From Smithella sp. (GTDB taxonomy: Bacteria; Desulfobacterota; Syntrophia; Syntrophales; Smithellaceae): a DNA stretch of 64,000 nucleotides. Where the stretch lies: contig JAGPFC010000003.1 in assembly GCA_018056685.1 (NCBI GenBank), forward strand, positions 124,001 through 188,000. Direction: 5' to 3'. Positions 23,659-60,500 of this stretch are shown one piece after another. A program made the translations under genes and the position numbers. The notes below the pieces were generated by a model, which had not been told where the DNA came from, ran no database searches, and worked only from the letters and a program-made list of their open reading frames with translations. Position 1 is the stretch's first letter. Each line of letters opens with the position of its first letter.

Positions 23659-24465
23659 ATGGAACAGAAATCAACATACAGGGTTTCGTCATCCTTTAAT
23701 AATGGAATTCTGGAAATTACAGAAGCAGGTGAAGTAAAGGAAAACGAAGTTGAAAAATTAACCAATGAAGTTCTTGCTATTATAAAAGCAGGTAATGGGG
23801 AATCTGTATTAGTTGATGTTCGCACCATTAAGGGGCGTTTCGGGTACACGGAAGCCTATATGCGCGTTAAAAATTTTCCGGCAGATAGAAAAGGCGTGAA
23901 CATTGCGATTGTCTATCATCCGGAGAATGCTGAATACGAAAAATATCAGGAAACACTGGCATTAAACGCAGGCCTGTCCTGGAAGTGTTTTGAAGATATT
24001 GATGCGGCGAGATCCTGGCTTAAGAGCAGGCAGGCAGACATGAATCGTTCAGCCGATGATACTATCGACGTGGATTCTGCAGGGAAAAAAGATCCAGGCA
24101 TTGATATGGAAGAAAGAAGACAAACGGAACGCCTGGAAGATGTTAATGAAGTCATCATATCTGTCATATCCGGAGAAGAAGATCTTTCTGCGGATAAAGT
24201 CATCTATAGTCACAGCAAGGATATTTCTGTGTCGGGTGCCAGATTGCGTGCGACAATAGTTTTGCCTGTGGGCACGATCCTTAAAATAGACTTTACATTA
24301 AAGGATCTGCAACAAAAGATAACCGCCCTGGGCAAAGTAAAATGGATCAAGGTCATCATTGAAGATCAGTATTATGAGTCGGGAGTGGAATTCGTTAATA
24401 CACCCGGTGAAGCAATCCAGAAAATTAAAAATTACATATCGTGGAAAAAAACGCATCAGTTTTAG
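23659..24465 (+). CDS. STAS-like plus PilZ domain protein
   Basis: 268 residues. The first 125 resemble the SpoIIAA/STAS-like fold (FNNGILEITEAGEV, SVLVDVRTIKGR, NIAIVYHP). A linker leads to a PilZ domain from about 150. The c-di-GMP motif is RQTERLEDVN (RxxxR), and KDISVSGARL is the second half (D/NxSxxG). The C-terminus (ALGKVKWIKVIIED) is nearly identical to the PilZ protein at 61878-62252. The start is ATG 23659 with AAGGAG seven bases before. It probably links c-di-GMP to an unknown partner. Confidence 0.75.
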   Translation: MEQKSTYRVSSSFNNGILEITEAGEVKENEVEKLTNEVLAIIKAGNGESVLVDVRTIKGRFGYTEAYMRVKNFPADRKGVNIAIVYHPENAEYEKYQETLALNAGLSWKCFEDIDAARSWLKSRQADMNRSADDTIDVDSAGKKDPGIDMEERRQTERLEDVNEVIISVISGEEDLSADKVIYSHSKDISVSGARLRATIVLPVGTILKIDFTLKDLQQKITALGKVKWIKVIIEDQYYESGVEFVNTPGEAIQKIKNYISWKKTHQF

Positions 24466-24489
24466 TATGATCACAACATACTAAAACTG
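24457..24489 (+). terminator. 13 bp hairpin overlapping the STAS/PilZ stop codon
   Basis: CAGTTTTAGTATG (24457-24469) and CATACTAAAACTG (24477-24489) form a perfect 13 bp stem with a 7 nt loop. The stop codon lies in the left arm. No T tract follows, so it may be a processing or mRNA-stability element rather than a terminator. Confidence 0.4.
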
Positions 24490-24534
24490 CTAAAAGTGAT
24501 ATTCTAAAATTCAATCTAAGAAAAGGAGGCAATC

Positions 24535-25086
24535 ATGGAAAATAAAAAAATAGTGAATCAGATGATTGATTTACACAAAAAAGCCTTTGATAACTGCTTT
24601 TCGACCATTTTAACGCTTCAGGAGCAGGCGGAAAATCTTGTGAAGACTTTTATCGATCATGTGCCCGGCATCAGCGATGAAGGAATAAAAGTACTGGAAC
24701 AGTGCACCGGTTCATACAATAAGGGACTTGAAGAACTAAAGAAGGCTATCGATGAGGGATACGCCAGGTTTCAGGAATTTTTTGACAACAATGCAATGGT
24801 CACGTTCCGGGATCAGACCGAGAAAATGTTCGGTGCTTTCTTAAATCAGAAAAATTATATTCCTGAAGAGGCAAAAAAGGTCCTTGAGAAATTGTTTGTT
24901 AATTACATGAACGGCAGCGAAGAATTCAAGAAATACGTTGATGAAAATGTCTGGTGCCTGAAGCACTTTCCTCCCATTGCCGGAAAACCGCAACCGCGGT
25001 CAAAGGCCAAGGCAAAGATTACGCCTCAATCCAAGCCCAAAATGAAAGCAGAGACAAAAGCTAAACGAAAGACTAAGAAGAAATAA
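24535..25086 (+). CDS. Phasin-like helical protein with basic tail
   Basis: 183 residues, mostly alpha-helical by eye (LHKKAFDNCFSTILTLQEQAENLVKTF). The last 35 residues are a Lys/Pro/Ala-rich tail (SKPKMKAETKAKRKTKKK). The helical core resembles phasins, which coat polyhydroxyalkanoate granules, and the basic tail is like those of granule or DNA-associated variants. A GGAGG lies before ATG 24535. It sits between two PilZ genes; 11 nt separate it from the next. The assignment is tentative. Confidence 0.5.
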   Translation: MENKKIVNQMIDLHKKAFDNCFSTILTLQEQAENLVKTFIDHVPGISDEGIKVLEQCTGSYNKGLEELKKAIDEGYARFQEFFDNNAMVTFRDQTEKMFGAFLNQKNYIPEEAKKVLEKLFVNYMNGSEEFKKYVDENVWCLKHFPPIAGKPQPRSKAKAKITPQSKPKMKAETKAKRKTKKK

Positions 25087-25097
25087 TTTCCTGCTTT

Positions 25098-25451
25098 ATG
25101 GATGAGAAAAGAAAAGCGGAACGACTGGAAGATGTGAATGAAGTTACCATAGCCGTGATTTCCGACAAAAAAAATCTTCCTGAAGAAAAAGTCACTCATG
25201 GCTATAGTATGAATATCTCCGTCTCCGGCGCCAGAATTAAGACCGATGTTCTGCTGCCCGTGGAGACACTCCTTAAGGTAGATTTCTCATTAGAAGATAT
25301 GCAAAGAAAGATAGGCACCATCGGACAGGTAAAGTGGATGAAGGTTGTTATCGAAGATGAGTCGTATAACGAAGGCGTTAAATTTGACAATCCTTCAAGA
25401 AATCTGGCGGATTATATCGCATGGAAACAAAAGTCCAGAAGTCCAATATAA
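25098..25451 (+). CDS. PilZ domain protein
   Basis: A 117-residue single-domain PilZ protein. RKAERLEDVN gives the RxxxR part and MNISVSGARI the NxSxxG part of the c-di-GMP site. The sequence parallels the PilZ half of the STAS/PilZ protein along its whole length, so it is a local duplicate. It begins 11 nt after the phasin-like gene and is probably co-transcribed with it. Confidence 0.8.
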   Translation: MDEKRKAERLEDVNEVTIAVISDKKNLPEEKVTHGYSMNISVSGARIKTDVLLPVETLLKVDFSLEDMQRKIGTIGQVKWMKVVIEDESYNEGVKFDNPSRNLADYIAWKQKSRSPI

Positions 25452-25602
25452 CCTGTCATCTGCTCTGAATAGAATTTGGTACGTATAGCTTCCTGTAGTC
25501 CACAATTTTCAAATCAAGAAATTTATGCTAGGTTACAACCAGAATTTTTAACTTTAATAACATTGAAACCGAACTACATAAAAATGTAATTTTGGAGATA
25601 TT

Positions 25603-26148
25603 ATGACAACGAGCCCTTTACCCGATAGCCAGAATCAAATTCAAACAATTCATCTCACCATCAACGGAAATAACTTTTCACTGGAGGTGGGAATGGCGCC
25701 GCACCAGGTTCAACCCTGCCACACCTTGCTTCAGACGATTCGCGAAACACTGGGGTTTACGGGCACTAAAGAAGGTTGTGATGAAGGGGCTTGCGGAGCC
25801 TGCACTGTCATCATGGATGGGGAGCCGGTATTGTCCTGTATGATGCTTACCATTGAATGTGATGGCAAGAGCATCACGACCATTGAAGGATTGCAAAATC
25901 CGGAAACCGGTCATTTAGATCCTCTTCAGCAGTCTTTTATTGATCATGGCGCATTTCAGTGCGGATTCTGCACACCAGGCATCATCATGGCTTCCAAAGT
26001 GTTAATAGATAAAAAATCGAATCTTGAAACAAATGACGTCAAAGAAGCCCTTTCCGGACATTACTGCCGTTGCATCACCCATTACCAGGTGGTGGACGCA
26101 GTTATTGACGCTACGAAGAAAGCAAAGAGGGCCAGCGATGACAAATAA
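25603..26148 (+). CDS. Molybdenum hydroxylase small subunit, [2Fe-2S]
   Basis: 181 residues. It holds two [2Fe-2S] clusters that pass electrons from the molybdenum site to FAD. The plant-type cluster uses Cys59, Cys64, Cys67 and Cys79 (GCDEGACGACTV). The second is Cys120, Cys123, Cys155 and Cys157 (CGFCTPG, HYCRCITHY). In most relatives the last motif reads LCRCTGY, so HYCRCITHY is unusual. The gene starts a seven-gene operon. The next frame opens 11 nt before its stop. Confidence 0.9.
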   Translation: MTTSPLPDSQNQIQTIHLTINGNNFSLEVGMAPHQVQPCHTLLQTIRETLGFTGTKEGCDEGACGACTVIMDGEPVLSCMMLTIECDGKSITTIEGLQNPETGHLDPLQQSFIDHGAFQCGFCTPGIIMASKVLIDKKSNLETNDVKEALSGHYCRCITHYQVVDAVIDATKKAKRASDDK

Positions 26149-28429
26149 CTATAGATATATAGGAAAACAACTCCCCCGAAAGGACGCGAAGGAGATCGTG
26201 ACTGGAAAGGCAGCGTTCTTTGACGACATCAAAATGCCGGACATGCTGATCGGAAAGACACTGCGGAGTCCTTATCCCCATGCAAACATCCAAAGCATTG
26301 ATACGCGTAACGCGGAAAATCTGCCTGGTGTCAAGGCGGTTCTCACTTATAAAAATATACCTTCCTGGACAGTTGGAATCCCGCCTCATATTCCTGTGCT
26401 TGACAGAAGATTGCGCTATGTGGGAGATGCCGTGGCACTTGTCGCCGCAGAAACCAGGGAAATTGCCGAGGCCGCTATTGAGCTTATCAAGGTGGAATAT
26501 GAACAGCTGGAGGCCGTCTATGATCTGGACGAAGCAATTAAGCCCGAGGCTCCTCAGCTGTACGACTTTGCTCCTCAAAACATGATGCCGGATGCCTTAC
26601 CGCTTGGGGTTGAAGGATTTGAAGATGCACCCCTGCATCACATCAGGATTGGAAATGTTGAAAAAGGATTTCAGGAGGCGGATATCATCTGCCAGGGAAC
26701 CTGCTCTTATGATGGCATTCCCAATCCTCTGCCCCCTGAACCTCCCGGCATTATCGTAAAATGGGAAGGTCCTGAAGAAGCGATTGTCTGGTCGGCAACA
26801 CAAAGCCCCTCCTGGGCTAATATTTTATATTCCATGTTCCTTAATTTTACAGAAATACGTTCCATAGCCACCTATTGCGGTGGCAGCTACGGCTCCAAGA
26901 ATCTATTGTTCAATATCTCTCTTCATGCTGCGGCACTGGCCAAGGCAACCAACAGACCTGTCAAAATCTACTACACGAAAGCGGAACATCTGAATGCTTT
27001 TGTGTTGAGACCCGCATCCAGGATTCATGGAAAGATTGGAATGAAAAAAGATGGAACGCTTACGGCCATTCAAGGGGACTGGCTCATGGGCTATGGTGCG
27101 AATGCCCCTATGGGATTCATGCAACTGGCTGTGGGATGCGGTGAAGCTCAACTGGCGCTCCGGTGCAAGAACTGGGACTTCAAGGCAAAATGTGTACTGA
27201 CCAATCGGACTCCATCCGGCATTGTCCGTGGATTTGGCGGCCAAGAGCTCAAATCTTCACTCCTGCCTATTCTTTCCATAGCCATGCAAGAAGCCGATAT
27301 CGATCCCCTTGAGTTCTTTAAGAAAAACTATGTCAAAGATGGCGACGGATATTACTGGCGGGATAATAAATGGCATGTCTGTGGAGGCATGGATTATCGG
27401 AAGGCCATGGAAAAAGGCGGCGAAGCCTTCGGTTGGAAGGAAAAATGGAAAGGATGGCTTAAACCCACCACAGAAAAAGGTACAAAAAAAACAGGTGTGG
27501 GCGTCAGTCTGCACGGCAATGCGGACGTTGGGGAAGACCGCTCCGAAGCTTATGTCAGGCTGATGCCGGGCGGCGAAGCGGTTGTGCAAATCCTCGTCGC
27601 AGAAGCGGGGATGGGTCAAAGGGACAGTTTATGTAAAATGGTTGCAGAAGTTTTGCAGCTACCATTGGAAAAAGTAAAGATGACGCCCCCGGACTCCCTG
27701 GTGAATCCGGTGGAGTCCGGTCTGGTAGGATCAAGAGGCACTTATGCATGCGGATCAGCGGTCATCGCCGCGGCTCAGGATGCCCGGAAACAGCTCCTGG
27801 AAAAAGCAGCCGAAAAATTCAACACGGCCGCCGAAAATATGGATACGGCCGATGGCATTGTTTTTCAAAAGGATAAGCCCGATCAGGCCATGCCGTGGTT
27901 CTTTATAACAGGTCCGTTTCAATCCTTTACAGGATTCGGACGTTTTAACACCGACTTTACCAAGCCCAATTTCATGATGATTTTTACTGAAGTTGAAGTG
28001 GATATTGAAACCGGCAAAATTGAAATTCTCAAAGTACTTGCCGCGACAGATGCCGGTCAGATCATCAATCCCCTTGCCCTGAAAGGTCAGATCCGGGGAT
28101 CGCTGGGCTCCGCCGGAATTGACACGGCCATTATGGAAGAATCCGTGATCGATCCGCAAAATGGTCATATCATGACCTCCAATATGATCGACTATAAATG
28201 GCGAACCTTTGCCGAGTTGCCCGAATTTGACGACGTGATTCTGGAATCGCAGTTCCCGACGCACCAGTTTAAAGCCATAGGGCTTGGAGAAATCTCAACC
28301 GCGCCAACCCCGGCAGCGGTTCTTATGGCAGTTTCCAATGCCGTCGGAAAACAATTTTTCGACTATCCGCTTACACCTGATAAAATTCTCAGGGCCTTAG
28401 GAAAAATTCAGGGAGCAGAAAGTAAATGA
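26138..28429 (+). CDS. Molybdenum hydroxylase large (Moco) subunit
   Basis: 763 residues in the xanthine dehydrogenase family. It binds the molybdenum pterin and does the hydroxylation. The start ATG 26138 overlaps the small-subunit stop by 11 nt; an earlier in-frame codon at 26024 lies deep in that gene. Expected features are YRYIGKQLPRKDAKEIVTGKA at the start, a Moco loop GGSYGSK near 248-254 (GGGFGGK in relatives), GFGGQE near 365, GMGQRDS, and the base GLGE near 714-717. The departures from family consensus suggest an unusual substrate. Purine, nicotinate and aromatic-CoA substrates are all possible. Confidence 0.85.
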   Translation: MTNNYRYIGKQLPRKDAKEIVTGKAAFFDDIKMPDMLIGKTLRSPYPHANIQSIDTRNAENLPGVKAVLTYKNIPSWTVGIPPHIPVLDRRLRYVGDAVALVAAETREIAEAAIELIKVEYEQLEAVYDLDEAIKPEAPQLYDFAPQNMMPDALPLGVEGFEDAPLHHIRIGNVEKGFQEADIICQGTCSYDGIPNPLPPEPPGIIVKWEGPEEAIVWSATQSPSWANILYSMFLNFTEIRSIATYCGGSYGSKNLLFNISLHAAALAKATNRPVKIYYTKAEHLNAFVLRPASRIHGKIGMKKDGTLTAIQGDWLMGYGANAPMGFMQLAVGCGEAQLALRCKNWDFKAKCVLTNRTPSGIVRGFGGQELKSSLLPILSIAMQEADIDPLEFFKKNYVKDGDGYYWRDNKWHVCGGMDYRKAMEKGGEAFGWKEKWKGWLKPTTEKGTKKTGVGVSLHGNADVGEDRSEAYVRLMPGGEAVVQILVAEAGMGQRDSLCKMVAEVLQLPLEKVKMTPPDSLVNPVESGLVGSRGTYACGSAVIAAAQDARKQLLEKAAEKFNTAAENMDTADGIVFQKDKPDQAMPWFFITGPFQSFTGFGRFNTDFTKPNFMMIFTEVEVDIETGKIEILKVLAATDAGQIINPLALKGQIRGSLGSAGIDTAIMEESVIDPQNGHIMTSNMIDYKWRTFAELPEFDDVILESQFPTHQFKAIGLGEISTAPTPAAVLMAVSNAVGKQFFDYPLTPDKILRALGKIQGAESK

Positions 28430-29403
28430 AACCATTTAAACATTTTACAGTAAATTCCGTCGATGAAGCTGTGTTGCTGCTCAAAACCTATGAAGGCCGA
28501 TCAAAAATAATCGCGGGGGGAACGGATCTGCTTGGTGTTCTCAAGAGCAACATTCTTCCGGATTACCCTGAGGCAGTCGTCAATATAAAAAATATTAAGG
28601 GACTGGACAAGATAGAGTCGGGAACGGACGGTTTCCTCCGTATCGGTCCCCTCGTCAGATTAAAAGACATCATTTGCTCACCACTGATCAAAGAAAAATG
28701 TCCTTTACTGGCAACTGCTGCCGAGACCGTTGCCACAAATGAAATCCGGAACGTGGCCACCATTGGCGGCAACATCTGCCAGGATATCCGGTGCTGGTAC
28801 TATCGATATCCCCATGCGATCGGGGGAAGATTCGATTGTCTGCGAAAAGAAAAGAAAGGACCCTGCCCTGCGGTTAAAGGAGACAACCGCTATCATGCGA
28901 TTATGGGCGGGAAAGGATGTTTTGCCGTCTGTCCTTCTGACATCGCGGTCGCTTTGTCAGTCCTGGATGGCATCATCACGCTCCGTGGTCCGGAAGGTGA
29001 GAGGGAGATTGGTATCCGGGATTTCTATACGCCCTTAGGAACGGTCATGAAATCCGATGAAATTGTTACGGAGATCAGGTCCCTCTTGCCGTCCCAGGGC
29101 GCGCGCCAGTCCTTTCATAAATTTACATTACGGAAACCAATTGACTTTGCCGTGGTTAGCGTCGCGTCCCTCGTCAGCATGGAGGGGTCAATGTGCCAGG
29201 ATGCTAAAATAGCTCTTGGAGGCGTTTCGCACAAACCCGTCAGGGCTCAGGAGGCCGAACAAACGATGAGAGGAAATGTTCCGGAAGAGGCGTTGACAGC
29301 GGCCGCCGCTGAAGCTGCTTTGAAAGGAGCTAAACCTCTGAGCAAGAACGCCTACAAGATTGAAATTGCAAAAACATTGATCAAAAAAAGCCTGCTTTTA
29401 TGA
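28426..29403 (+). CDS. Molybdenum hydroxylase FAD subunit with extra Cys motif
   Basis: 325 residues. The FAD-binding motifs are KIIAGGTDLLGVLKS and ATIGGNICQD. Between them and the FAD-domain end is an insertion with Cys118, Cys123, Cys138, Cys147, Cys165 and Cys169. A similar insertion in 4-hydroxybenzoyl-CoA reductase carries a [4Fe-4S] cluster, so one is plausible here. The start overlaps the large-subunit stop by 4 nt. The C-terminal domain (FTLRKPIDFAVVSVASLV) is typical. Confidence 0.85.
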   Translation: MKPFKHFTVNSVDEAVLLLKTYEGRSKIIAGGTDLLGVLKSNILPDYPEAVVNIKNIKGLDKIESGTDGFLRIGPLVRLKDIICSPLIKEKCPLLATAAETVATNEIRNVATIGGNICQDIRCWYYRYPHAIGGRFDCLRKEKKGPCPAVKGDNRYHAIMGGKGCFAVCPSDIAVALSVLDGIITLRGPEGEREIGIRDFYTPLGTVMKSDEIVTEIRSLLPSQGARQSFHKFTLRKPIDFAVVSVASLVSMEGSMCQDAKIALGGVSHKPVRAQEAEQTMRGNVPEEALTAAAAEAALKGAKPLSKNAYKIEIAKTLIKKSLLL

Positions 29404-29448
29404 AGGAAGGAGCATTGTCGGAATCCCTGACATGACTTTTGTGGATTG

Positions 29449-30486
29449 ATGAAAAACATCCTGTTCAATATATGTACCCTCCTTTCAGCTAACACACCCT
29501 TTGTGCTGGCAACCATTGTCCATAAAGACGGTTCGGCTCCAAGAAACATGGGGGCCAGAATGATTGTCCTATCCGATGGCAATATCATTGACACCATTGG
29601 CGGTGGACATCTGGAGGCCAAAGTCATTGAAGATGCCTTAAACGTGTTCACATCGGGTCAATCGATAATTGCAGAGTATCAACTGGCCAGCATGGACATG
29701 ATTTGCGGCGGCCGATTATCTGTGTTGCTTGAATATATTGAAGCCATTGACGATATGAAAGCCCTGTTTCAAAAGGCGATGGGCTTTATCGAAGAAAAGA
29801 AAAATTTCATGCTGGTCACCTCTTATGCTAAGAACGCCGGCAGCATGGGACTCGCAATAAAGCGGGATATTCTGACTGCTGAAGGACCCATAATGGAAAG
29901 TCTGATTGTCCCGGAAGAGTTACAGCACTATTGGAAAAAGGGTTCACTGCCGCCGGTGTTACATATTGAAGACCAGCATCATTATTATTTTATCGAATCA
30001 TTTGGGACAAAAGAGACTGTTTTTATTTTCGGCGGCGGTCATATCGCCAAAGAGATCGAAAAACTTACCGATATGATCGGGATGAAAACGGTTGTGCTGG
30101 ATGACCGGAAGGAATATGCCAATACCCGTCGATTTCTATCGGCGGATGTTATTGTTCCGGAAAATTTTATAAAGGCATTTGAAGGACTGGACATCACCGC
30201 GGGCAGTTACATCATCATCGTCACCCCCGATCATAATAACGATAGAGACGTTCTCAGAGAGGCACTTAAAACCGATGCCGGATATATCGGCATGATTGGC
30301 AGCACAAGAAAACGGAATACGATATTCCAGTCTCTTGTCAGTGAAGGGATGGGTGAGGACAACTTGAAGCGGGTTCATTGCCCCATCGGCATGGACATCG
30401 GTTCGGAATCGCCACAGGAAATTGCTGTCAGCATTGTTGCCGAATTAATTTCAGTCCGGCGAGGTAAGACAAATCGTGCAAAATGA
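29449..30486 (+). CDS. XdhC/CoxF-family molybdenum hydroxylase maturation protein
   Basis: 345 residues. XdhC proteins bind Moco and help its sulfuration and insertion. Visible are the first-domain ATIVHKDGSAPRNMGARMIV and the later Rossmann VFIFGGGHIAKEIEKL with DDRKEYAN. ATG 29449 is preferred to TTG 29446. It follows the FAD subunit by 45 nt and overlaps the next gene by 11 nt. Confidence 0.88.
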   Translation: MKNILFNICTLLSANTPFVLATIVHKDGSAPRNMGARMIVLSDGNIIDTIGGGHLEAKVIEDALNVFTSGQSIIAEYQLASMDMICGGRLSVLLEYIEAIDDMKALFQKAMGFIEEKKNFMLVTSYAKNAGSMGLAIKRDILTAEGPIMESLIVPEELQHYWKKGSLPPVLHIEDQHHYYFIESFGTKETVFIFGGGHIAKEIEKLTDMIGMKTVVLDDRKEYANTRRFLSADVIVPENFIKAFEGLDITAGSYIIIVTPDHNNDRDVLREALKTDAGYIGMIGSTRKRNTIFQSLVSEGMGEDNLKRVHCPIGMDIGSESPQEIAVSIVAELISVRRGKTNRAK

Positions 30487-31279
30487 ATATATTCTCGTAC
30501 AGGGAGGGGGAGAGTTAGCTTCCGGCGTAGCCCATGCCCTATTCAACAGCGGGTTGAAGGTGATTATTCTTGAAATAGAACAACCGCTTTGTGTTCGGAG
30601 AACTGTTTCCTTTGCGCAGGCAGTTCTGGATAAAAAAATTGAAGTCGAAGGGATTCAGGGAGTGTTGACCCAGACGCCTGATGACATCCCGAAAATTCTC
30701 GCAGAAAAAAAAATCCCTGTATATATTGCCCATCTGTCTGACGCCATAGACCTGTTCAAACCTGTCGTGGTGATCAACGCGACCCTTTCCAAAAAAAACA
30801 ACGGCATGGTCAAGGATCTTGCACCCCTTACCATTGCGCTGGGGCCCGGATTTGTTGCTGGACAGGATGTCGATGTCGTTGTTGAAACCAAGAGGGGTCA
30901 TTATCTCGGAAAACTTATTTATGACGGCTCTGCTTTGACGAATACCGGTATCCCCGAAAAGGTAAATGGGTATGGGATTGAAAGGGTTTTATACGCGCCT
31001 TGTGACGGCATCTTGACACATATCCGTGATATTGGCGCAAGTGTCCGACGGGATGAGGTGATTTGCCGCGTGAGTGACGAAGCGGTCAAAGCCCCGTTTG
31101 ACGGCATGGTTCGAGGCCTGATCATGAACCATCGGAATGTCTCTAAAGGGATGAAGATCGGCGATGTCGATCCTCGAAATGACAGGAATTACTGTTATAC
31201 TATTTCAGACAAAGCCAGAACCGTCGGCGGTTCAGTGCTTCAGGCGATTCTCCGTTACCGGGCACAGGGAGACGCGTAA
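30476..31279 (+). CDS. yqeB: YqeB-family protein of the selenium-dependent molybdenum hydroxylase system
   Basis: 267 residues. The N-terminal Rossmann motif is VQGGGELASGVAHALF, followed by PLCVRRTVSFAQAV and a lipoyl/biotinyl-like C-terminal part (VLYAPCDGILTHIRDIGASV). This matches the EF2563/YqeB family, which is tied by genome context to hydroxylases with a labile selenium ligand. The biochemical role is not known. Start GTG 30476 overlaps XdhC; stop overlaps the next ATG by one base. Confidence 0.85.
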   Translation: MQNEYILVQGGGELASGVAHALFNSGLKVIILEIEQPLCVRRTVSFAQAVLDKKIEVEGIQGVLTQTPDDIPKILAEKKIPVYIAHLSDAIDLFKPVVVINATLSKKNNGMVKDLAPLTIALGPGFVAGQDVDVVVETKRGHYLGKLIYDGSALTNTGIPEKVNGYGIERVLYAPCDGILTHIRDIGASVRRDEVICRVSDEAVKAPFDGMVRGLIMNHRNVSKGMKIGDVDPRNDRNYCYTISDKARTVGGSVLQAILRYRAQGDA

Positions 31280-32031
31280 TGGGCATACTGGCTGATCTTC
31301 ATCTTGACCCTCATGCCAGGGAACTTGTCTGTCTGATTGGCGCCGGGGGAAAAACCTCTGTGATGTTTAACCTTGCCTCCACATTAAAAACGATCGGCAA
31401 AAAAATACTTGTCACCACCACGACCAAAATTTATCTGCCCGAAAAAGAACAATATGATTCGATGGTTTTTGATTCCTCCGATACCCTGGCACGACTAGAA
31501 AAAAGCAAACCCGGAACGATAACCTGTCTGGGAAAGGGACTACACGAAAATGATCATAAAGTTATCGGCGTCGATAAAGAACGTGTCGACCAGTTATTTG
31601 ACAGTCAATTGTTTGACTGGATCCTTGCTGAAGGTGACGGTGCCAGAGGCAAATCCATAAAAGCACCGGATGTTGAAGAACCGGTAATACCGGAAAGAAC
31701 CACCCTTGCCCTTGGTCTTATTGGTCTGGATGCACTGGGCAAAAAAGCCAATGATGAAAATGTTCACCGAAGCCGATTGTTCTGCAACGTTACAGGCGCA
31801 AAAGAAAATGATCGGATTGATGAAAGTCTGATTGCCCGGTTGATCGTTTCCCCGAAAGGTCTGTTTAAAAATGTTCCGGCAGATAGCAGGCGTATGGTTC
31901 TTTTAAACAAGGCGGATGTTATGCCGGACAATAAGATACCACTGCTGATTCACCGGATTGTGGAAAAGGAGGATCGCAACATTTCTATTGCCATTATTTC
32001 TGCAAAAGAGGACCGGGTGTTTCAATGGTAA
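31279..32031 (+). CDS. yqeC: YqeC-family accessory protein of selenium-dependent molybdenum hydroxylases
   Basis: 250 residues. A P-loop LIGAGGKTSVMFNLA begins the protein, followed by VTTTTKIYLP and LAEGDGARGKSIKAP. These are the marks of the YqeC family, found almost only with YqeB and selenium-dependent hydroxylases. A nucleotide-dependent maturation step is likely, but not demonstrated. The gene overlaps its neighbours on both sides. Confidence 0.85.
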   Translation: MGILADLHLDPHARELVCLIGAGGKTSVMFNLASTLKTIGKKILVTTTTKIYLPEKEQYDSMVFDSSDTLARLEKSKPGTITCLGKGLHENDHKVIGVDKERVDQLFDSQLFDWILAEGDGARGKSIKAPDVEEPVIPERTTLALGLIGLDALGKKANDENVHRSRLFCNVTGAKENDRIDESLIARLIVSPKGLFKNVPADSRRMVLLNKADVMPDNKIPLLIHRIVEKEDRNISIAIISAKEDRVFQW

Positions 32032-32597
32032 GCGGAATTATACTGGCAGCCGGTTTTTCCAAACGCCTGGGCCGGGACAAACTGCTGCTTGAAATGAATC
32101 ATGGAACGATCATTGAAAATGTGATTCGGGCGTCTGTTCAATCTGCTCTAGATGAGATTATTCTTGTATACCGGCGTGACGTCGTCAAGGCCGTGACGGA
32201 TTCCTACAGAATCAAAACCGTTAAAAATGAAGATGCAAAGAACGGACAAAGTACTTCTGTCGTGAAAGGCATCCGGGCGGCAAATCCGTCAACCGATGCG
32301 TATTTATTCATGGTGGGCGACCAGCCTTTTTTGAATCCGGAGACCATCAATCACATTCTGGACTGTCATATCAAAAATCCGGGTCAAATCATTGTTCCCC
32401 TCTATAATGGCCAATCAGGAAATCCGGTATTGTTTCCGGTCTCGTTTCAAAACGATTTGTTGCTTATCCGGGGGGATACAGGAGGAAGGTCCGTTATTCA
32501 AGCTTTCAAGGACAGGGTTACCCATATTGACATTGAGCAGTCTTCTATCGGTTATGATGTAGATACTATGGAAGATTTTGAAAATATAAAAAAATAA
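32025..32597 (+). CDS. MocA-like molybdenum cofactor nucleotidyltransferase
   Basis: 190 residues with an NTP-transferase fold: GIILAAGFSKRLGRDKLLL at the start, then MVGDQPFL as the metal-binding motif. MocA transfers CMP to molybdopterin to form the cytosine dinucleotide cofactor used by such hydroxylases. CTP versus GTP preference cannot be read with certainty, but its place at the end of this operon favours the cytosine form. It overlaps yqeC by 7 nt. Confidence 0.8.
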   Translation: MVSGIILAAGFSKRLGRDKLLLEMNHGTIIENVIRASVQSALDEIILVYRRDVVKAVTDSYRIKTVKNEDAKNGQSTSVVKGIRAANPSTDAYLFMVGDQPFLNPETINHILDCHIKNPGQIIVPLYNGQSGNPVLFPVSFQNDLLLIRGDTGGRSVIQAFKDRVTHIDIEQSSIGYDVDTMEDFENIKK

Positions 32598-32911
32598 TTT
32601 CTGATCAATAGATGATTATTGGTTGGGAGCTGTTGATAAGAACTTACTGCTTGCGTTGACAGTATAAGAAGCGATTTCTTGTGCATCAAGAATATTATGA
32701 CAGCCGTGGTGTCATTTGATACCATATTCCCATATAAATACTTTCAATTGGTAATCCTCAAATTCAACAAAACCCCAATACTATGGATAAGTAGGTAACT
32801 TCCGCAATCAAGACATCTTTCGAAAACATTGAAGTTGTGGATGTAAGAATAAAAAATTACATCATCGTTGAACAATATCTGAAAACTCGAGCATAGGTCA
32901 GGAAAAATCAA
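32598..32911. other. Intergenic region without a recognised gene
   Basis: This 314 bp lies between the end of the molybdenum hydroxylase operon and the convergent enolase-superfamily gene. No open frame of interest was seen. A small palindrome ATGACA-N7-TGTCAT lies at 32697-32715. TTGACA at 32656-32661 has no good -10 partner. No terminator with a T tract was found. Confidence 0.5.
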
Positions 32912-34138
32912 CTACTGAGACTCTTTTCTCTTTTTTAATTCCAACGCCGCTTTGAGGCCTTTTTGTCGGATCACTTTTATCTTTTGTCGCATCTCTGTCA
33001 GCTTAAAGAATCGTTTTCCGTATTTTTTCAGCATGCTTTCATTAATCTCGAATCCGAGACCTGGTTTTGTAAATGGCGAAAGCATCGCGTTTTGATCCGG
33101 AATAATCGGGTCAATAATACCTTCTCTTTCTTCCGGCACCCAGGATGGTTCTTCCAGGGGATATTCGAGGGGAAGGGTATTGCCTTTATCGGCAAGCACC
33201 ATATTCCAGTTGATATAAAAACCAATCCCGTTGGTCCAGGTATGAGGAGAATATTCCCGGTTGTGGGCGTGGCAGGCATCAATGACTTTCTTCACTTGGG
33301 CAATGCCGCCGGCAAAGGTCGCGTCAGGCTGATAAATATGGAAGCAGTCTTTTTCCAGCATAATCTTGATTTCATCCCAGCCATAGTTAAGTTCAGCTCC
33401 GGAAATCTTCACTTTTGAGACTTTCTTCAAAGCGGCGTTGCCGTCATAATCGCGGGAGTCCAGCGGTTCTTCGAGCCAGGCAATATTGTTGGCATAACAC
33501 GCTTCCGCAAACGCGATTGCGCGTTTCAGATCCCATGCGGGAATTTTATCAACAATGGTTACCAGCCATCCCTGATTGGCATCTACTCCTAAAACAAGAC
33601 GGTCCCCCACGCCTTTTTTAATCACCTCAATATGACGGATATCATCCTTGAGGTCTTTGTTCTTCACCCGCAGCTTAGCCGTTTTGAATCCGCGTTCTTT
33701 GATGGCCAACAATTCTTCCACTCTTTTTTCCGGGGCGTGCATCTCGCCGGTGGAGCAATAAACCTCGATGGGTCTTGCCTCGCCGCCTAAAAGTTCATAA
33801 ACGGGTTTTCCCTTGCTCTTGCCGATGATGTCCCAGCATGCCGGCTCAATCCAGAAATTTCTCCACCCCAAAATACCTGCCTGCTTTAACAGGTTCTGAC
33901 AGGTATCGATGTCGGTAGGATCGGCGCCCAGTAAATATCCGCCGATGAGATCCCCCAAGCCTTCCCGCTCATGTCCCAGAGCGGAACCTGCCGAATACCC
34001 CTCAATGCCATCATCTGTCACCAGTTTGATGAGAGTAAAGCCATTGTGAGTCTGTGGGTAGCCGGGTATCCAGGTGGGCCAGAATGTATGTTTTAACGGA
34101 ATCTGTACGTGATAAAGTTCAATCAAAGATATTTTCAT
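32912..34138 (-). CDS. Enolase-superfamily enzyme (mandelate racemase / muconate lactonizing type)
   Basis: 408 residues. The N-terminal capping domain precedes a barrel with a likely catalytic Lys in AKLRVKN, metal ligands in VLGVDANQGW, AWLEEPLD and ISGAELNYG, and the later YSPHTWTNGIG His. ATG 34138 is chosen for the AAGGAGG just upstream, leaving out an earlier codon at 34195. The superfamily takes a proton from a carbon next to a carboxylate; the substrate cannot be named. It is not part of the molybdenum operon, which runs on the other strand. Confidence 0.75.
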   Translation of the reverse strand: MKISLIELYHVQIPLKHTFWPTWIPGYPQTHNGFTLIKLVTDDGIEGYSAGSALGHEREGLGDLIGGYLLGADPTDIDTCQNLLKQAGILGWRNFWIEPACWDIIGKSKGKPVYELLGGEARPIEVYCSTGEMHAPEKRVEELLAIKERGFKTAKLRVKNKDLKDDIRHIEVIKKGVGDRLVLGVDANQGWLVTIVDKIPAWDLKRAIAFAEACYANNIAWLEEPLDSRDYDGNAALKKVSKVKISGAELNYGWDEIKIMLEKDCFHIYQPDATFAGGIAQVKKVIDACHAHNREYSPHTWTNGIGFYINWNMVLADKGNTLPLEYPLEEPSWVPEEREGIIDPIIPDQNAMLSPFTKPGLGFEINESMLKKYGKRFFKLTEMRQKIKVIRQKGLKAALELKKRKESQ

Positions 34139-34288
34139 GCGAACCTCCTTGATAAAATCTCGGTCAAAAGCTCCGTTCTCCAGGTTTTGAATCATGATGA
34201 ACCACGTGAATAGTCCTTGAACTTCAATATACGGCAGATTATGAAAAATGGTTTTGATGTTACGAATAATTTGAGCTTTATAATTTTT

Positions 34289-34579
34289 TTACTGCTTTGA
34301 CTCTTTAAGTTTTTCCAGTTCTTCTTTGTAACTTTCGGCTTGGGCTTTAATGATTTCAATTTCTTTCTGAGCGTTTACCAGTTTTTCTTCCTGTCTGTGT
34401 CTTTCCTCCCTGTTTTTTTCCTGCATTTCGTCAATGCCCACATAAATGGCCAGAGCGCCGCCCAGGAGCAGAAATATCGGCAGAGAACCTTTGAGGATGT
34501 TGACAAAATCAAACCAGAAAAAGATTAAACTGACTAAACCGATGATGGCGGAAATTGCTCCGCCGATAAGCAGAGACAT
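34289..34579 (-). CDS. Small membrane protein with coiled-coil tail
   Basis: 96 residues. Two hydrophobic helices (about 3-22 and 33-50) are followed by a Glu/Lys-rich coiled coil from about residue 52 to the end. No family is recognised. It starts at ATG 34579 after a GGAGGT-type site. It could anchor a complex at the membrane. It is separated from the enolase gene by 150 nt. Confidence 0.6.
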   Translation of the reverse strand: MSLLIGGAISAIIGLVSLIFFWFDFVNILKGSLPIFLLLGGALAIYVGIDEMQEKNREERHRQEEKLVNAQKEIEIIKAQAESYKEELEKLKESKQ

Positions 34580-34739
34580 AAATTACCTCCGGTTGAAACA
34601 TGACATGAAATCTGGGCTTTTTTAACATAAAAAGAATATTCCGACAAGGCGTAAATAGATATTATCAATATAAAAATATTACTTGATTTAAAACGGTTCA
34701 TCATTTAGATATGCAAAATTATAATGTTACGAGGATAAA

Positions 34740-35114
34740 ATGATAGAACCAAATTTTTCCAAAGGCGACGGGTTAGTTCCCGCGATTGTTCAGGATGCCG
34801 ATACAAAGGACGTTCTGATGATGGCTTACATGAATCGTGAATCATGGGAAGCGACGCTGAAAAGCGGCAAGGCGACCTTCTGGAGCAGATCGCGTCAGAA
34901 GTTGTGGTTAAAGGGTGAATCGTCAGGCAATGTGCAGATCGTCAAGGCTGTTTTTATTGATTGTGATGAAGATACCATTTTGCTGCAGGTCAAGCAAATC
35001 GGAGATGCTGCCTGTCATACAGGATACCGATCGTGTTTTTACCGGAAGCTGAGCGGGCAGGATTTTGTCGTGGTGGGAGAAAAGATTTTTAATCCAGAGG
35101 AAGTATATAAATGA
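34740..35114 (+). CDS. hisI: Phosphoribosyl-AMP cyclohydrolase
   Basis: 124 residues. It opens the adenine ring of phosphoribosyl-AMP in histidine biosynthesis. The zinc and magnesium sites are in VFIDCDEDT and [13 protein letters not shown], and [13 protein letters not shown] is the substrate-binding stretch. It is the stand-alone cyclohydrolase form, without the HisE pyrophosphohydrolase. It starts a his gene group and overlaps hisG by 4 nt. Confidence 0.93.
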
Positions 35115-35983
35115 AAGTTTTAAAGCTCGGCATTCCCAAGGGAAGTCTGGAAACAAATACCATTGATTTATTCAAAAAGGCGGGCTGGCGCATTACCAGC
35201 GACGCCCGAAGCTATTTCCCGGATATTGATGATCCGGAAATTTCCTGTAAACTGGTCCGCGCGCAGGAGATGTCACGTTATGTTGAGGATGGCACGCTGG
35301 ATCTCGGATTGACCGGCATCGACTGGATCATGGAAAATGAGTCGGACGTGGTGGTGGTGCAGGATCTGATTTACTCCAAGGTATCCACACAACAGGCGCG
35401 CTGGGTGCTGGTTGTGCGTGAAAATTCTCCATACAAGACCATTGAAGATATGGAAGGAAAAAGAATATCAACCGAGCTGGTGAACTTCACCAAAAAATAT
35501 TTTGCCGATAGAAACATCAATATCCATGTTGAGTTTTCCTGGGGAGCAACGGAAGCGAAGGTGGTCGAAGGCCTGGTGGATGCCATTGTGGAAGTGACGG
35601 AAACCGGTTCGACCATTCGCGCTAATAAATTGCGGATCATTCACGAGCTGATGAAAACCAACACGCAATTGATTTCCAATAAAGCTTCCTGGAACAATCC
35701 CTGGAAACGAAAAAAAATTCAACAAATCAGCACGATGCTGACCGGTTCTTTGCAGGCCATGGGCAAGGTGGGGATTAAACTGAATGTCGCCAAAGAAAAT
35801 CTGGATAAGGTGATGAAGCTGCTGCCGTCGCTGAAGTCTCCGACGGTTTCCAGCCTGTCGTCCAATACGTGGTTTGCCATTGAATCCATTGTGGACGCGA
35901 AAATTGTCCGTGATCTGATTCCGACGCTGATAGAAGCCGGTGCGCAGGGCATTATTGAATATCCTTTAAACAAGGTAATCTGA
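35111..35983 (+). CDS. hisG: ATP phosphoribosyltransferase, long form
   Basis: 290 residues. This is the committed step of histidine synthesis. [20 protein letters not shown] at the N-terminus and the phosphate-binding [21 protein letters not shown] loop are present. The length and the C-terminal domain ([13 protein letters not shown]) show the long form, which carries its own His-feedback domain and needs no HisZ. The start overlaps the hisI stop. Confidence 0.93.
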
Positions 35984-35995
35984 GTTAGCAGAATT

Positions 35996-36583
35996 ATGGC
36001 CAGAAAAGTGAAAATCATCCGTACGACAACGGAAACAGATATCCATCTGGAAATTGATCTGGATAAAACATCCGGAACAAGCATTGAGACGACGATTCCT
36101 TTTTTCAATCATATGCTGGAACTTTTTGCCCGTCATGGTTTCCTGAAGCTGGTTGTGAGGGCCAAGGGTGATACCCACATTGATGATCATCATTTAATCG
36201 AAGATTTGGGGATCTGTCTGGGCAAGGCTGTGGCGCAGGCACTGGGAAGGAAGACCGGCATCAATCGCTACGGCTCGTCCTGCATTCCGATGGATGAATG
36301 CCTGTGCCGGGTGGATATGGATATTTCCGGCCGCCCCTATCTGATTTACAATGTCAAATACGGACGAAGAAAAACCGGCGGATTTGATCCGGCCCTGGTC
36401 AAGGAATTCTTCAAGGCTTTTACCGACCAGAGCGGCATCACGCTGCACATTAATTTATTGTATGGCGACAATGTTCATCACATCATTGAATCGGTCTTTA
36501 AAGCTTTTGCCCGTGCCTTCAAAAATGCTGTTACCATGAATGAAAACATTAAAGGCGTTCTTTCCACCAAAGGAAGACTTTAA
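35996..36583 (+). CDS. hisB: Imidazoleglycerol-phosphate dehydratase
   Basis: 195 residues, the monofunctional dehydratase. The family motifs FFNHMLELFARHG, DDHHLIEDLGI and the later VHHIIESVFKAFARAF give the manganese-binding His and Glu residues. The phosphatase half found in enterobacteria is absent. It lies 12 nt after hisG. Confidence 0.94.
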   Translation: MARKVKIIRTTTETDIHLEIDLDKTSGTSIETTIPFFNHMLELFARHGFLKLVVRAKGDTHIDDHHLIEDLGICLGKAVAQALGRKTGINRYGSSCIPMDECLCRVDMDISGRPYLIYNVKYGRRKTGGFDPALVKEFFKAFTDQSGITLHINLLYGDNVHHIIESVFKAFARAFKNAVTMNENIKGVLSTKGRL

Positions 36584-56622: not shown

Positions 56623-57510
56623 GTGAAATCATTGAGATACGAAGGCAACATTTTCAGGCCGTTTAGCGAAGCCAACAGCTATCTGCTGCAGTGTACGATA
56701 GGATGTTCCCATAATCAGTGCACTTTCTGCGGCATGTACAAGGACAAAAAGTACAGGGAGCGGTCACTTGCCGAAATCATGGAAGACATCACCATGGCCA
56801 AAAACCATTACGGTGATCTGGAAAAAGTATTTCTCTGCGACGGCGATGCCATTGCTCTGGACATGGATATGCTGCTGGCCATTTTGAAAAAACTCTATCA
56901 AACATTTCCATCACTGCGCCACGTGGGGAGTTATGTCGGGCCGCAAAGCACCTTATCCAAATCCCTGGAAGAATTGAAGACGCTGCGGCGTGCCGGCCTG
57001 ACCAAGGCCTATATCGGTGTGGAAACCGGCGATGATGAGCTTCTGCAAAAAGTGAAAAAAGGCGTCGGTTATGATCAGATGCTGAAAGCCGGACAAAATC
57101 TGATTGCCGCGGAGATCAATCTTTCCGCGATGGTGCTTTTAGGACTGGCGGGGAAGGGCGAAGCCTCGAAAAGGCATGCTCTGGCCACGGCAAAAATCTG
57201 TAATGAAATGAAACCGCAATATCTGGCGGCGCTTACCGTTACGCCTGTTCCGGGAACTGTTTTGTATCGTCAGGTTCAAAAGGGCGAATTTGAATTGCTG
57301 AACCCCTTTGAAACACTGGAAGAGATGAAACAGATGATGGAAAATATTACGGCAGACGGCATCAAATTTGTCGGCACCCATGCTTCCAACTATCTGCCCG
57401 TTACCGGTACATTGCAGAAAGACAAACAAAAAATGATCGCCGCGGTTAATGCGGTTCTAAGCAACAGAGATGAAAGTATGCTGCGCCCGGATTATATGCG
57501 CGGTTTATAA
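56623..57510 (+). CDS. Radical SAM protein with a Cx4Cx2C cluster motif
   Basis: 295 residues. The cluster motif reads GCSHNQCTFCGMY, spaced Cx4Cx2C instead of Cx3Cx2C, a spacing confirmed in the bases at 56701-56736. GSYVGPQSTL and AYIGVETGDDELL are typical later motifs. It may be in the group of oxygen-independent HemN-related proteins of unknown substrate. GTG 56623 or TTG 56632 could be the start; the AAGGTGA favours the TTG. Confidence 0.75.
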   Translation: MKSLRYEGNIFRPFSEANSYLLQCTIGCSHNQCTFCGMYKDKKYRERSLAEIMEDITMAKNHYGDLEKVFLCDGDAIALDMDMLLAILKKLYQTFPSLRHVGSYVGPQSTLSKSLEELKTLRRAGLTKAYIGVETGDDELLQKVKKGVGYDQMLKAGQNLIAAEINLSAMVLLGLAGKGEASKRHALATAKICNEMKPQYLAALTVTPVPGTVLYRQVQKGEFELLNPFETLEEMKQMMENITADGIKFVGTHASNYLPVTGTLQKDKQKMIAAVNAVLSNRDESMLRPDYMRGL

Positions 57511-57541
57511 TGAACGAAATTCACTGATAAGAAAATTGAAC

Positions 57542-60500
57542 ATGAAAAATCACACGCCATCCTTAACCGACATCCAGATCGCGGCTGAGCAGGGTAATGC
57601 TGTTGCGCAGCGAAATCTCGGATTGATGTACCTCACCGGTAAGGGGGTTGCCCAGGATTATGATGAAGCCGTCGCGTGGTTCCTGAAGGCATCCGAGCAG
57701 GATGACGCCAAGGCCCAGTTCAATCTGGGTTGGATGTATCAGGAAGGAAAGGGTGTCGAGCAGGATGATGAAGAAGCGGCAAAATGGTACCTGAAGGCGG
57801 CGGAGCAGGACGACGCCAAGGCCCAGTACAATCTGGCATTGATGTACAAAAAAGGCGATGGTGTTCCCCAGGACGATGAAGAAGCCGTGCGATGGTTTAC
57901 GGAAGCCGCAGAACAGGGAATTGCCGTTGCTCAGTATAATCTGGGTGAGATGTACAAAAAAGGCAGAGGCGTTCCCAAAGATGAAAACAAGGCTGTAAAG
58001 TGGTATCGAAAAGCGGCGGCCCAGGGACACGCGGAAGCCCAGAAAAGACTGGAAAGCATGGGGCAGAGAAGCAAAAGTGCTGTTCGTGAGGATACCCCAA
58101 TACCGCAAAAACAGCGCAAAGCAGCTGAGCAGGAACAGCACGAGCCCCGAGCAAGGCAGAATCATGTGAATCAGCAGGGGAAAGCTGTTCCTCAGGATGA
58201 AGCGGAAATTGTCAATAAGTACCTCAAGGCGGCCGCGCAGGGAGATATCGCGGCGCAGTTCAATCTGGGAGTTATCTATCACAAAGGAACAGGTGTGCCG
58301 CGCGATGACGTCAAGGCCGCGAAATGGTATCAAAAGGCGGCTGAACAGGGACACGCGGATGCCCAGTTCCATCTGGGTGTAATGTATCATCTGGGTGAAG
58401 GCATTCCCAAAGACGATACCGAAGCGGTGAAGTGGTATCAAAAGGCGGCCGAAAGCGGTAACGCGGAAGCGCAATATAATGTGGGATTGCTTCATCTCCA
58501 GGGAGACGGCATTCCCAGGGATTATGCCGAAGCGGCCAAATGGTTTTTAAAATCTGCCGAACAGGGACACGCGGATGCCCAGTTCAATCTCGGTCTTTTA
58601 TACCAGAGCGGTGAAGGAGTTCAGCAGAGCGATCAGGAAACTTTACAATGGTTTCGCAAGGCAGCCGAGCAGGGAATTCCCGCTGCCCAGTTTTACATGG
58701 GTGAAATGTACAAAACGGGTAAATGTGTTCCGATGGATCAGGAAGAATCCGCCCAATGGTATCTCAAGGCGGCTGAACAGGATCATGCGGAAGCCCAGTT
58801 CAATCTCGGCATGATGTATAAAGAGGGGAAAGGGGTTGCCCCGGATGATGCCGAGGCTGCCAGATGGTTTTTTCAATCCGCCAAACAGGGCAATGCAGAT
58901 GCCCAGCTCAATCTGGGTTTGATGTATCATAACGGTGATGGCGTTCAACAGGATGATGAGGAAGCGGTTAAGTGGTATCGGAAGGCTGTTGAGCAGGGCA
59001 ATGCGGAAGCGCAGTTCAATCTGGGATTGAGCTATTTTTTCGGCGAAGGAGTTGATCTGGACTTTGCCGAAGCGGCCAAGTGGTATGAAAAGGCTGCACA
59101 ACAGGGGAATGCACGGGCCCAGTTTAATCTGGGATTGATGTACCATAACGGCAAGGGAGTGCCCCAGGACGATGCGGAAGCGGCGAAATGGTACAGCAAA
59201 GCAGCCGACCAGGGACGTGCGGATGCCCAGTTCAATCTTGGCCTTCTGTATCAGAAAGGGTTAGGTGTTGCCCAGGACGATGCGGAGGCGGCGAAATGGT
59301 TTCGGCGGGCGGCCGCGCAGGGGCGCGCTGACGCGCAGAGAATACTGGACATCATGTACAGCGAAGGGAGATGCGCTCCGCTGGATGAAGCCGAGGCTTT
59401 AAGCTGGTACATGAGAGCGGCAGGACAGGGAAATGTTAATGCCCAATGCAAACTGGGGGACATATACAGCGAAGGCAGAGGCGTAGCGCAGGATGATGCC
59501 GAAGCCGCGAAGTGGTATCTGATGGCGGCGGAACAGAATAGTTTGCAGGCGCAAATTAAACTGGGCGAAATATACAGCGAAGGCAGAGGCGTAGCGCAGG
59601 ATGATGCCGAAGCTGCGAAGTGGTATCTGATGGCGGCCCAGCAGGGTAACGCCGATGCCCAATATCACGTGGCAGTCATGTACCGTCATGGAGAGGGAAT
59701 CCCTCAGGATGACGCCGAAGCTCTAAAGTGGTTTTTAAAGTCTGCCGAACAGGGAATCGTTTCCGCGCAATTCAATCTGGGAGAAATGTATCAGGACGGT
59801 CTAATTGTCGGGCAGGACGACGCGGAGGCTGTAAAATGGTATCTGAAGGCGGCCGAGCAGGGCGATGCCACTGCACAGTATAATGTGGGCATGATGTACC
59901 GCAAGGGTGAAGGCGTCTCCCGCAACGATGCAGAGGCGGCAAAGTGGTATCTAAAAGCGGCACAACAGGGACACGCCGGCGCTCAGATTAACATAGCCTG
60001 GCTGTATCAGGATGGCGTAGGCGTCGCCAGGGACGATGCGGAGGCGGCGAAGTGGTATCGTCTGGCTGCGGAACAGGGTGATGCTGATGCCCAGTACAGT
60101 ATAGGTGTGATGTGCCGCAAGGGATTGGGAGTTCAGAAGAACTATGTGGAAGCGGCTAAATGGTTGTTGAAATCGTCGAAGCAGGGCAATGCCGATGCCC
60201 AGTTTCATCTGGGTGAAATGTACCGGAAAGGTGAAGGCGTTGAACAGGATGATACCGAGGCCGTAAAATGGTTATCGAAATCCGCGGAACAGGGCAACCT
60301 TTATGCCCAGCGTCATCTTGGTGAAATGTATGCAGAAGGCTCGGGGGTCGTGCAGGACAATGCCGAAGCGGCAAAATGGTTCCGCAGGGCGGCCGAACAG
60401 GGAGAAATATCCGCCGGGTTCCATTTGGGCGAGCTGTACCGCAGGGGGGAAGGGCTTGAACAGGATTATGCCGAGGCCGCGAAATGGCTCTTGAAACCTG

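Follow-up and report, generated by a model that had tools for sequence, protein, structure and literature searches.

The 64,000-nucleotide stretch of Smithella sp. DNA analysed here (assembly GCA_018056685.1, contig JAGPFC010000003.1, positions 124,001 to 188,000; hereafter the window) carries at 25603-32597 a seven-gene operon for a three-subunit molybdenum hydroxylase of the xanthine oxidase family together with XdhC, YqeB, YqeC and a MocA-like protein, and this gene set is confirmed by profile searches. The reading that we favour, at a probability of about 0.6, is that the operon constitutes a complete selenium-type molybdenum hydroxylase together with maturation proteins dedicated to it, and that it was probably gained on an island of about 9.3 kb. 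The genomic markers support a place for the enzyme in the selenium-dependent group, while its large subunit stands in a clade of its own, outside the named families tested.

Gene content and order of the operon

Gene identities were established by Pfam and NCBIfam profile searches, the latter judged against the curated cut-offs (Table 1). A preliminary description, made from the letters of the window alone, had claimed seven genes in this order with overlaps or short gaps, and the claim holds throughout: all seven frames are intact, lie on the same strand at the positions given and match the families named. The small and large subunit genes overlap at 26138-26148, those of the large subunit and the flavin adenine dinucleotide (FAD) subunit share an ATGA at 28426, a gap of about 42 nt precedes the XdhC gene, and further overlaps follow at 30476, 31279 and 32025. 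The start of the large subunit was moved from the TTG at 26024 of the mechanically called open reading frame to the ATG at 26138, giving a protein of 763 aa, and a GGAG ribosome-binding-like sequence lies immediately 5' of the small-subunit gene. Promoter candidates at the operon scored no better than those in shuffled sequence, and an Rfam search over 24000-36000 gave no match. Given the profile scores and the 31 homologous loci described below, chance can be excluded as the origin of the gene set.

Table 1. Genes of the operon and features of the surrounding island, in window coordinates
Feature	Position	Strand	Support
Small subunit, two [2Fe-2S] domains, 181 aa	25603..26148	+	Fer2_2 3.4e-26 (Pfam), Fer2 family matches
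Large molybdopterin subunit, 763 aa	26138..28429	+	MoCoBD_1 1e-41, MoCoBD_2 2e-47, Ald_Xan_dh_C (Pfam)
FAD subunit with [4Fe-4S]-type cysteine insert, 325 aa	28426..29403	+	FAD_binding_5 2e-36, CO_deh_flav_C
XdhC-type molybdenum cofactor sulfuration/insertion factor (ATG at 29449)	29446..30486	+	XdhC_C 7e-41; NF045664 359 bits, cut-off 350
YqeB, selenium-cofactor maturation marker (GTG start)	30476..31279	+	TIGR03309 329.8 bits, cut-off 220
YqeC, selenium-cofactor maturation marker	31279..32031	+	TIGR03172 186.3 bits, cut-off 73; PF19842 1e-42
MocA-like molybdopterin cytidylyltransferase	32025..32597	+	TIGR03310 181.9 bits, slightly below cut-off 186.45; PF12804 1.4e-35
Block with the operon, inserted by comparison with the nearest sequenced congener	24998..34287		Synteny comparison with congeners
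Mandelate racemase/enolase-superfamily gene, convergent to the operon, same island	32912..34195	-	MR_MLE_C 4.5e-42; nearest solved structure 5olc, 1.5e-32

The host genome and the genomic island

In the assembly of the host, which is 3.19 Mb long and 91% complete, profile and sequence searches found a single MoCoBD_1 protein, the large subunit of the operon, and the only YqeB copy is likewise the one within it. With no second hydroxylase in the assembly, the maturation proteins have no other visible client.

The operon shares its block of about 9.3 kb with genes for a PilZ protein and an enolase-superfamily protein. In the closest sequenced congener (G016) only about 240 bp separate the positions that correspond to 24997 and 34288, so that the block is absent there at that place, and in six congeners, G016 and five further, synteny across the downstream his/dnaG block breaks off at 34288-34296. 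Neither the large subunit nor YqeB was found in any of the 16 congeners searched. The base composition shows no sign of transfer (46.3% GC in the island, 46.7% in the window), and it is from synteny and distribution that we consider the operon to have been probably gained by transfer, the alternative being loss elsewhere.

Markers of selenium-dependent maturation

According to published work (Haft and Self, PMC2276186; PMC5029168), labile selenium is the trait marked by the joint presence of SelD, YqeB and YqeC. All three are encoded in the host genome (selD 385 bits, YqeB 329.8 and YqeC 186.3), and the genes for the latter two overlap within the very operon that encodes the hydroxylase subunits. 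Genetic studies in Clostridioides difficile point the same way: growth on urate requires both yqeB and selD there, as does full growth on xanthine (PMC11448449). The marker rule and these genetics together support the earlier proposal of a probably selenium-dependent hydroxylase, and selenium dependence of the enzyme in the window appears likely on the strength of its gene context. The XdhABC and XdhD-YgfK-SsnA locus of Escherichia coli resembles the window in placing a yqeB-yqeC-mocA accessory set beside molybdenum hydroxylases. The E. coli enzymes are, however, annotated as purine-type, and the large subunit in the window falls below the cut-offs of both their families; moreover, the YqeB of E. 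coli is longer (541 aa) and belongs to the XdhC-CoxI family, whereas XdhC and YqeB are separate genes in the window.

YqeB is present in 20 of the 28 genomes with a clade hydroxylase (G000, G076 and 18 of a further 26, one of the 18 by a truncated match below the cut-off). Among the other relatives it was found in 4 of 97 (Fisher 3e-13), and in 4 of the 20 whose hydroxylases all lie outside the clade (Fisher p = 0.001). The gene selD has proved to be of little use. Its absence had been named as an observation that would speak against selenium, and it is present, but 90 of 99 relatives also carry it, near universally in the order, so that its presence discriminates little and it was dropped as a discriminator. 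The further expectation of selD without selA/selB did not hold, since SelB is present above its cut-off and the host selD itself contains an in-frame TGA, the position reading SAGUACK. The host thus appears to make selenocysteine, and the reading of an orphan selD was rejected.

Several observations weigh against a selenium enzyme. The Fisher tests ignore shared ancestry and compare groups that are different taxon samples. YqeB was not found in 8 of the 26 clade genomes; most of the eight are incomplete, and they include the Desulfosarcina cetonica draft (7.1 Mb) and a metagenome-assembled genome of 5.5 Mb. In several other clade genomes YqeB adjoins a different hydroxylase, and within the flanking sequence examined, YqeB, YqeC, XdhC and MocA lie beside none of the other homologues. 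In addition, yqeC is dispensable in C. difficile for growth on urate or xanthine (PMC11448449). The clade genomes without YqeB and the dispensable yqeC favour an ordinary sulfur-type molybdenum hydroxylase, with YqeB and YqeC either acting elsewhere in the maturation of the cofactor or present as mere passengers, and so do the presence in the operon of XdhC, a type of sulfuration or insertion factor, and the assignment of the selenium trait by co-occurrence. Such an enzyme would leave the sole YqeB and YqeC of the host in an operon whose product is their only visible client, and YqeB has been reported only in selD-positive genomes (PMC2276186). We regard the sulfur-type enzyme as unlikely, though far from negligible, and retain the selenium-type reading.

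The accessory cassettes found at homologous loci hold, beside YqeB, a protein of about 340 aa (L133:1830-2852, L132:6666-7703 and L136:1024-2043). The gene between MocA and YqeB in these cassettes was considered as a SelD gene and rejected, as it gave no BLAST match to host SelD. Three of the proteins carry a molybdopterin-binding (MoCF_biosynth) domain and may represent a further maturation factor; the operon in the window encodes no such protein.

The large subunit and its clade

Among 84,980 species genomes scanned, 31 homologous loci were found at 46-61% identity, with one outlier at 30%; the loci were assigned to several phyla and mostly to anaerobic groups. A homologue from the same order (G076) shares 56% identity with the large subunit. 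In the tree, a quick LG+G4 reconstruction in which the deeper order is unsure and the reference branches are long, the window sequence and 32 homologues (33 rows) form one clade (Shimodaira-Hasegawa-like approximate likelihood ratio support 100, stem 0.76), with 4-hydroxybenzoyl-coenzyme A (CoA) reductase (4-HBCR), nicotinate dehydrogenase, XdhA, XdhD, PaoC, CoxL and quinoline oxidoreductase all outside. None of the characterised enzymes placed in the tree falls within it, and as far as could be checked the enzyme family is uncharacterised. The tree had been proposed as a check on whether the large subunit groups within a known selenium-independent family, and it does not.

The profile scores agree, the large subunit lying far below the cut-off of every NCBIfam equivalog that it matched: 227.9 bits against 830.45 for the selenium-dependent xanthine dehydrogenase (TIGR03311), 260.9 against 1101.9 for the XdhD type (TIGR03313, Se_sel_red_Mo), 364.9 against 780 for xanthine dehydrogenase XdhA (NF043082), 362.2 against 994.55 for the 4-HBCR alpha subunit (TIGR03194) and 248 against 1180 for PaoC. 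On the cut-offs and the tree both a standard and a selenium-dependent xanthine dehydrogenase were rejected, and the preliminary description was right to set the enzyme apart from the former and to leave its substrate open. A selenium-dependent enzyme of the known kind that hydroxylates xanthine or another purine would accord with the substrates of the known hydroxylases of this sort, purines or nicotinate (PMC2276186), and the XdhA model is one of those that score highest. However, the large subunit groups with neither E. coli XdhA nor XdhD, and purine genes were neither seen beside the operon nor found to recur beside the homologues, all of which leaves a purine enzyme very improbable.

Among solved structures, the nearest sequence to each half of the large subunit is nicotinate dehydrogenase of Eubacterium barkeri (3hrd; 140.6 and 123.9 bits, against 129.3 and 105.3 for 4-HBCR), a hydroxylase known to depend on selenium and to use molybdopterin cytosine dinucleotide (PMC2276186). 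The two are not grouped in the tree, the molybdenum subunit of the E. barkeri enzyme is split into two chains where the window encodes one, and the cysteine insert of the FAD subunit in the window has no counterpart in the alignment to 3hrd_C, the 296-aa FAD subunit of that enzyme. The predicted fold of the large subunit (mean predicted local distance difference test score, pLDDT, 84.8) has 4-HBCR (1rm6) as its top Foldseek match (E 4e-65, TM-score 0.86), and 3hrd is absent from the fold-search matches listed, an absence that does not count against it. In VIA-align the model reached Z scores of 31-35 against the family; many members lie only a few Z units apart, and the fold therefore favours none of them over the rest. 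The catalytic glutamate of the GxGE motif is E718, which aligns with the family glutamate and is invariant in the clade alignment, and the pocket region carries the clade-specific motifs NPLPPEPPG, CGGSYGSK, RGFGGQE and DYKWRTF.

Homologue neighbourhoods and the substrate

The neighbourhoods of the 31 homologous loci (450 kb of sequence) give raw counts, uncorrected for background. Acyl-CoA ligases occur near 10 of the loci, six of them within 2.5 kb of the large-subunit gene and those of L073 and L082 directly downstream, and tripartite ATP-independent periplasmic (TRAP) transporters at nine (L041 included), four being directly upstream of the subunit genes; at one locus (L058) DctPQM, the three subunits and a ligase stand in one run. 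IclR regulators are found at six loci and corrinoid methyltransferases at three. The adjoining transporters and ligases suggest an imported carboxylic or organic acid as the substrate, perhaps in the form of its CoA ester. Set against this, neither a TRAP transporter nor a ligase adjoins the operon in the window. The benzoyl-CoA ring-cleavage hydratase Oah was not found in the host either (best 70 bits against 464), which makes growth on aromatic acids by the benzoyl-CoA route unlikely there.

Could the enzyme be a reductive dehydroxylase akin to 4-HBCR, acting with low-potential electrons on an aryl-CoA or a related hydroxy-aromatic compound? Such an activity would be compatible with selenium. 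Like the enzyme in the window, 4-HBCR has three subunits and an FAD subunit with an extra [4Fe-4S] insert; it is the best match by fold and the second by sequence, and the ligases and transporters near the homologues would suit it. The large subunit is nonetheless far below the 4-HBCR cut-off and in a separate clade, one of the four cluster cysteines follows PaoB rather than 4-HBCR, and the missing Oah speaks against such a route. We consider this a tentative possibility and a somewhat unlikely one. Members of the xanthine oxidase family that run reductively have been reported (4-HBCR and Ucdh; PMC12771579), and the enzyme in the window may accordingly run in either direction.

Elsewhere, a large subunit above the 4-HBCR cut-off (L147:1-5708; 1126.6 against 994.55) adjoins YqeB, MocA and YqeC, and in G063:C11 a similar gene also adjoins YqeB; from this context, a 4-HBCR may itself be of the selenium type. 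Molybdopterin oxidoreductase (PF00384-type) genes were observed near five homologous loci (L065:6766-8979, L061, L077, L080 and L085), that of L065 lying 22 bp from the large-subunit gene.

The FAD subunit and its proposed electron partner

The insert of the FAD subunit places cysteines 123, 138, 147 and 165 at all four cluster positions of PaoB and at three of the four of 4-HBCR, and these cysteines, together with Cys 169, are invariant across the 13 uninserted FAD subunits aligned. The cluster ligands of 1rm6, C122, C138, C146 and C155, do not all have counterparts; the position of C146 is a tyrosine, and the fourth cysteine stands at the PaoB position. From the arrangement and conservation of the insert cysteines we infer that the enzyme has a further [4Fe-4S] cluster and a partner of the ferredoxin type.

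The same cysteines raise the question of an aldehyde oxidoreductase that feeds ferredoxin, as E. coli PaoABC (5g5g) does. The best sequence matches of the FAD subunit are the aldehyde oxidase 5y6q_B (3.7e-41) and PaoB (2e-39), and XdhC lies within the maturation family of aldehyde oxidoreductases. In contrast, the large subunit is distant from PaoC, with which it shows no robust grouping, and PaoABC has no adjoining YqeB or YqeC. An enzyme of the PaoABC kind thus appears unlikely.

In 12 of the 28 scored tree rows the FAD subunit of the operon reaches about 780-860 aa through a domain of about 460 aa between cluster cysteines 3 and 4. The FAD genes with this NfnL/GltD-like insert are those of L057, L059, L068, L070, L072, L075 (two), L076, L078, L079, L083 and L084 (two). 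The domain scores 421 bits against the GltD family NF009410 (cut-off 516), its model (mean pLDDT 70.9) matches the bifurcating enzymes NfnABC/NfnL at about 35-40% identity, and the trait needs four changes on the tree. It is possible, on the evidence of this modelled domain, that the homologues with the insert are electron-bifurcating molybdenum hydroxylases, and an electron-bifurcation-type domain within an FAD subunit was not encountered in the literature searched. The window encodes the short form. A broader proposal would unite these features in an undescribed clade of selenium-molybdenum enzymes of strict anaerobes that hydroxylate or dehydroxylate CoA-activated organic acids, its ancestor or relatives bifurcating through the NfnL-type domain and the short form in the window exchanging electrons directly with ferredoxin; taken as a whole, we hold it to be quite improbable.

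Other features of the window

The enolase-superfamily product encoded at 32912-34195 aligns to galactonate dehydratase (5olc), the second lysine of the KxK motif being an arginine; a functional tie of this gene to the operon is unproven. Further downstream, at 57470-61768 (+), an open frame of 1432 aa gives repeat-type matches to several Sel1/TPR-like models.

Proposed working and outlook

In the selenium-type reading, MocA would add a cytosine nucleotide to molybdopterin to form the cytosine dinucleotide cofactor, which XdhC would hold and load, while YqeB and YqeC, with selenophosphate from SelD, would help to put selenium in place of sulfur on the molybdenum. The large subunit might then add water-derived oxygen to an organic-acid-type substrate, perhaps a CoA ester, or strip a hydroxyl from it, with electrons passing between the molybdenum, the two [2Fe-2S] clusters, the FAD and the extra [4Fe-4S] cluster towards ferredoxin or another carrier of low potential.

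Little is understood of how selenium reaches the molybdenum or of which enzymes receive it, and few such enzymes have been characterised. Here the enzyme and its whole presumed maturation set lie in one operon, and the genome searches gave no second hydroxylase, so that the loss of yqeB or yqeC has a single readable outcome. Moreover, the operon points to an uncharacterised clade found in anaerobes of several phyla, and in some of its members the FAD subunit contains a domain of the electron-bifurcation type.

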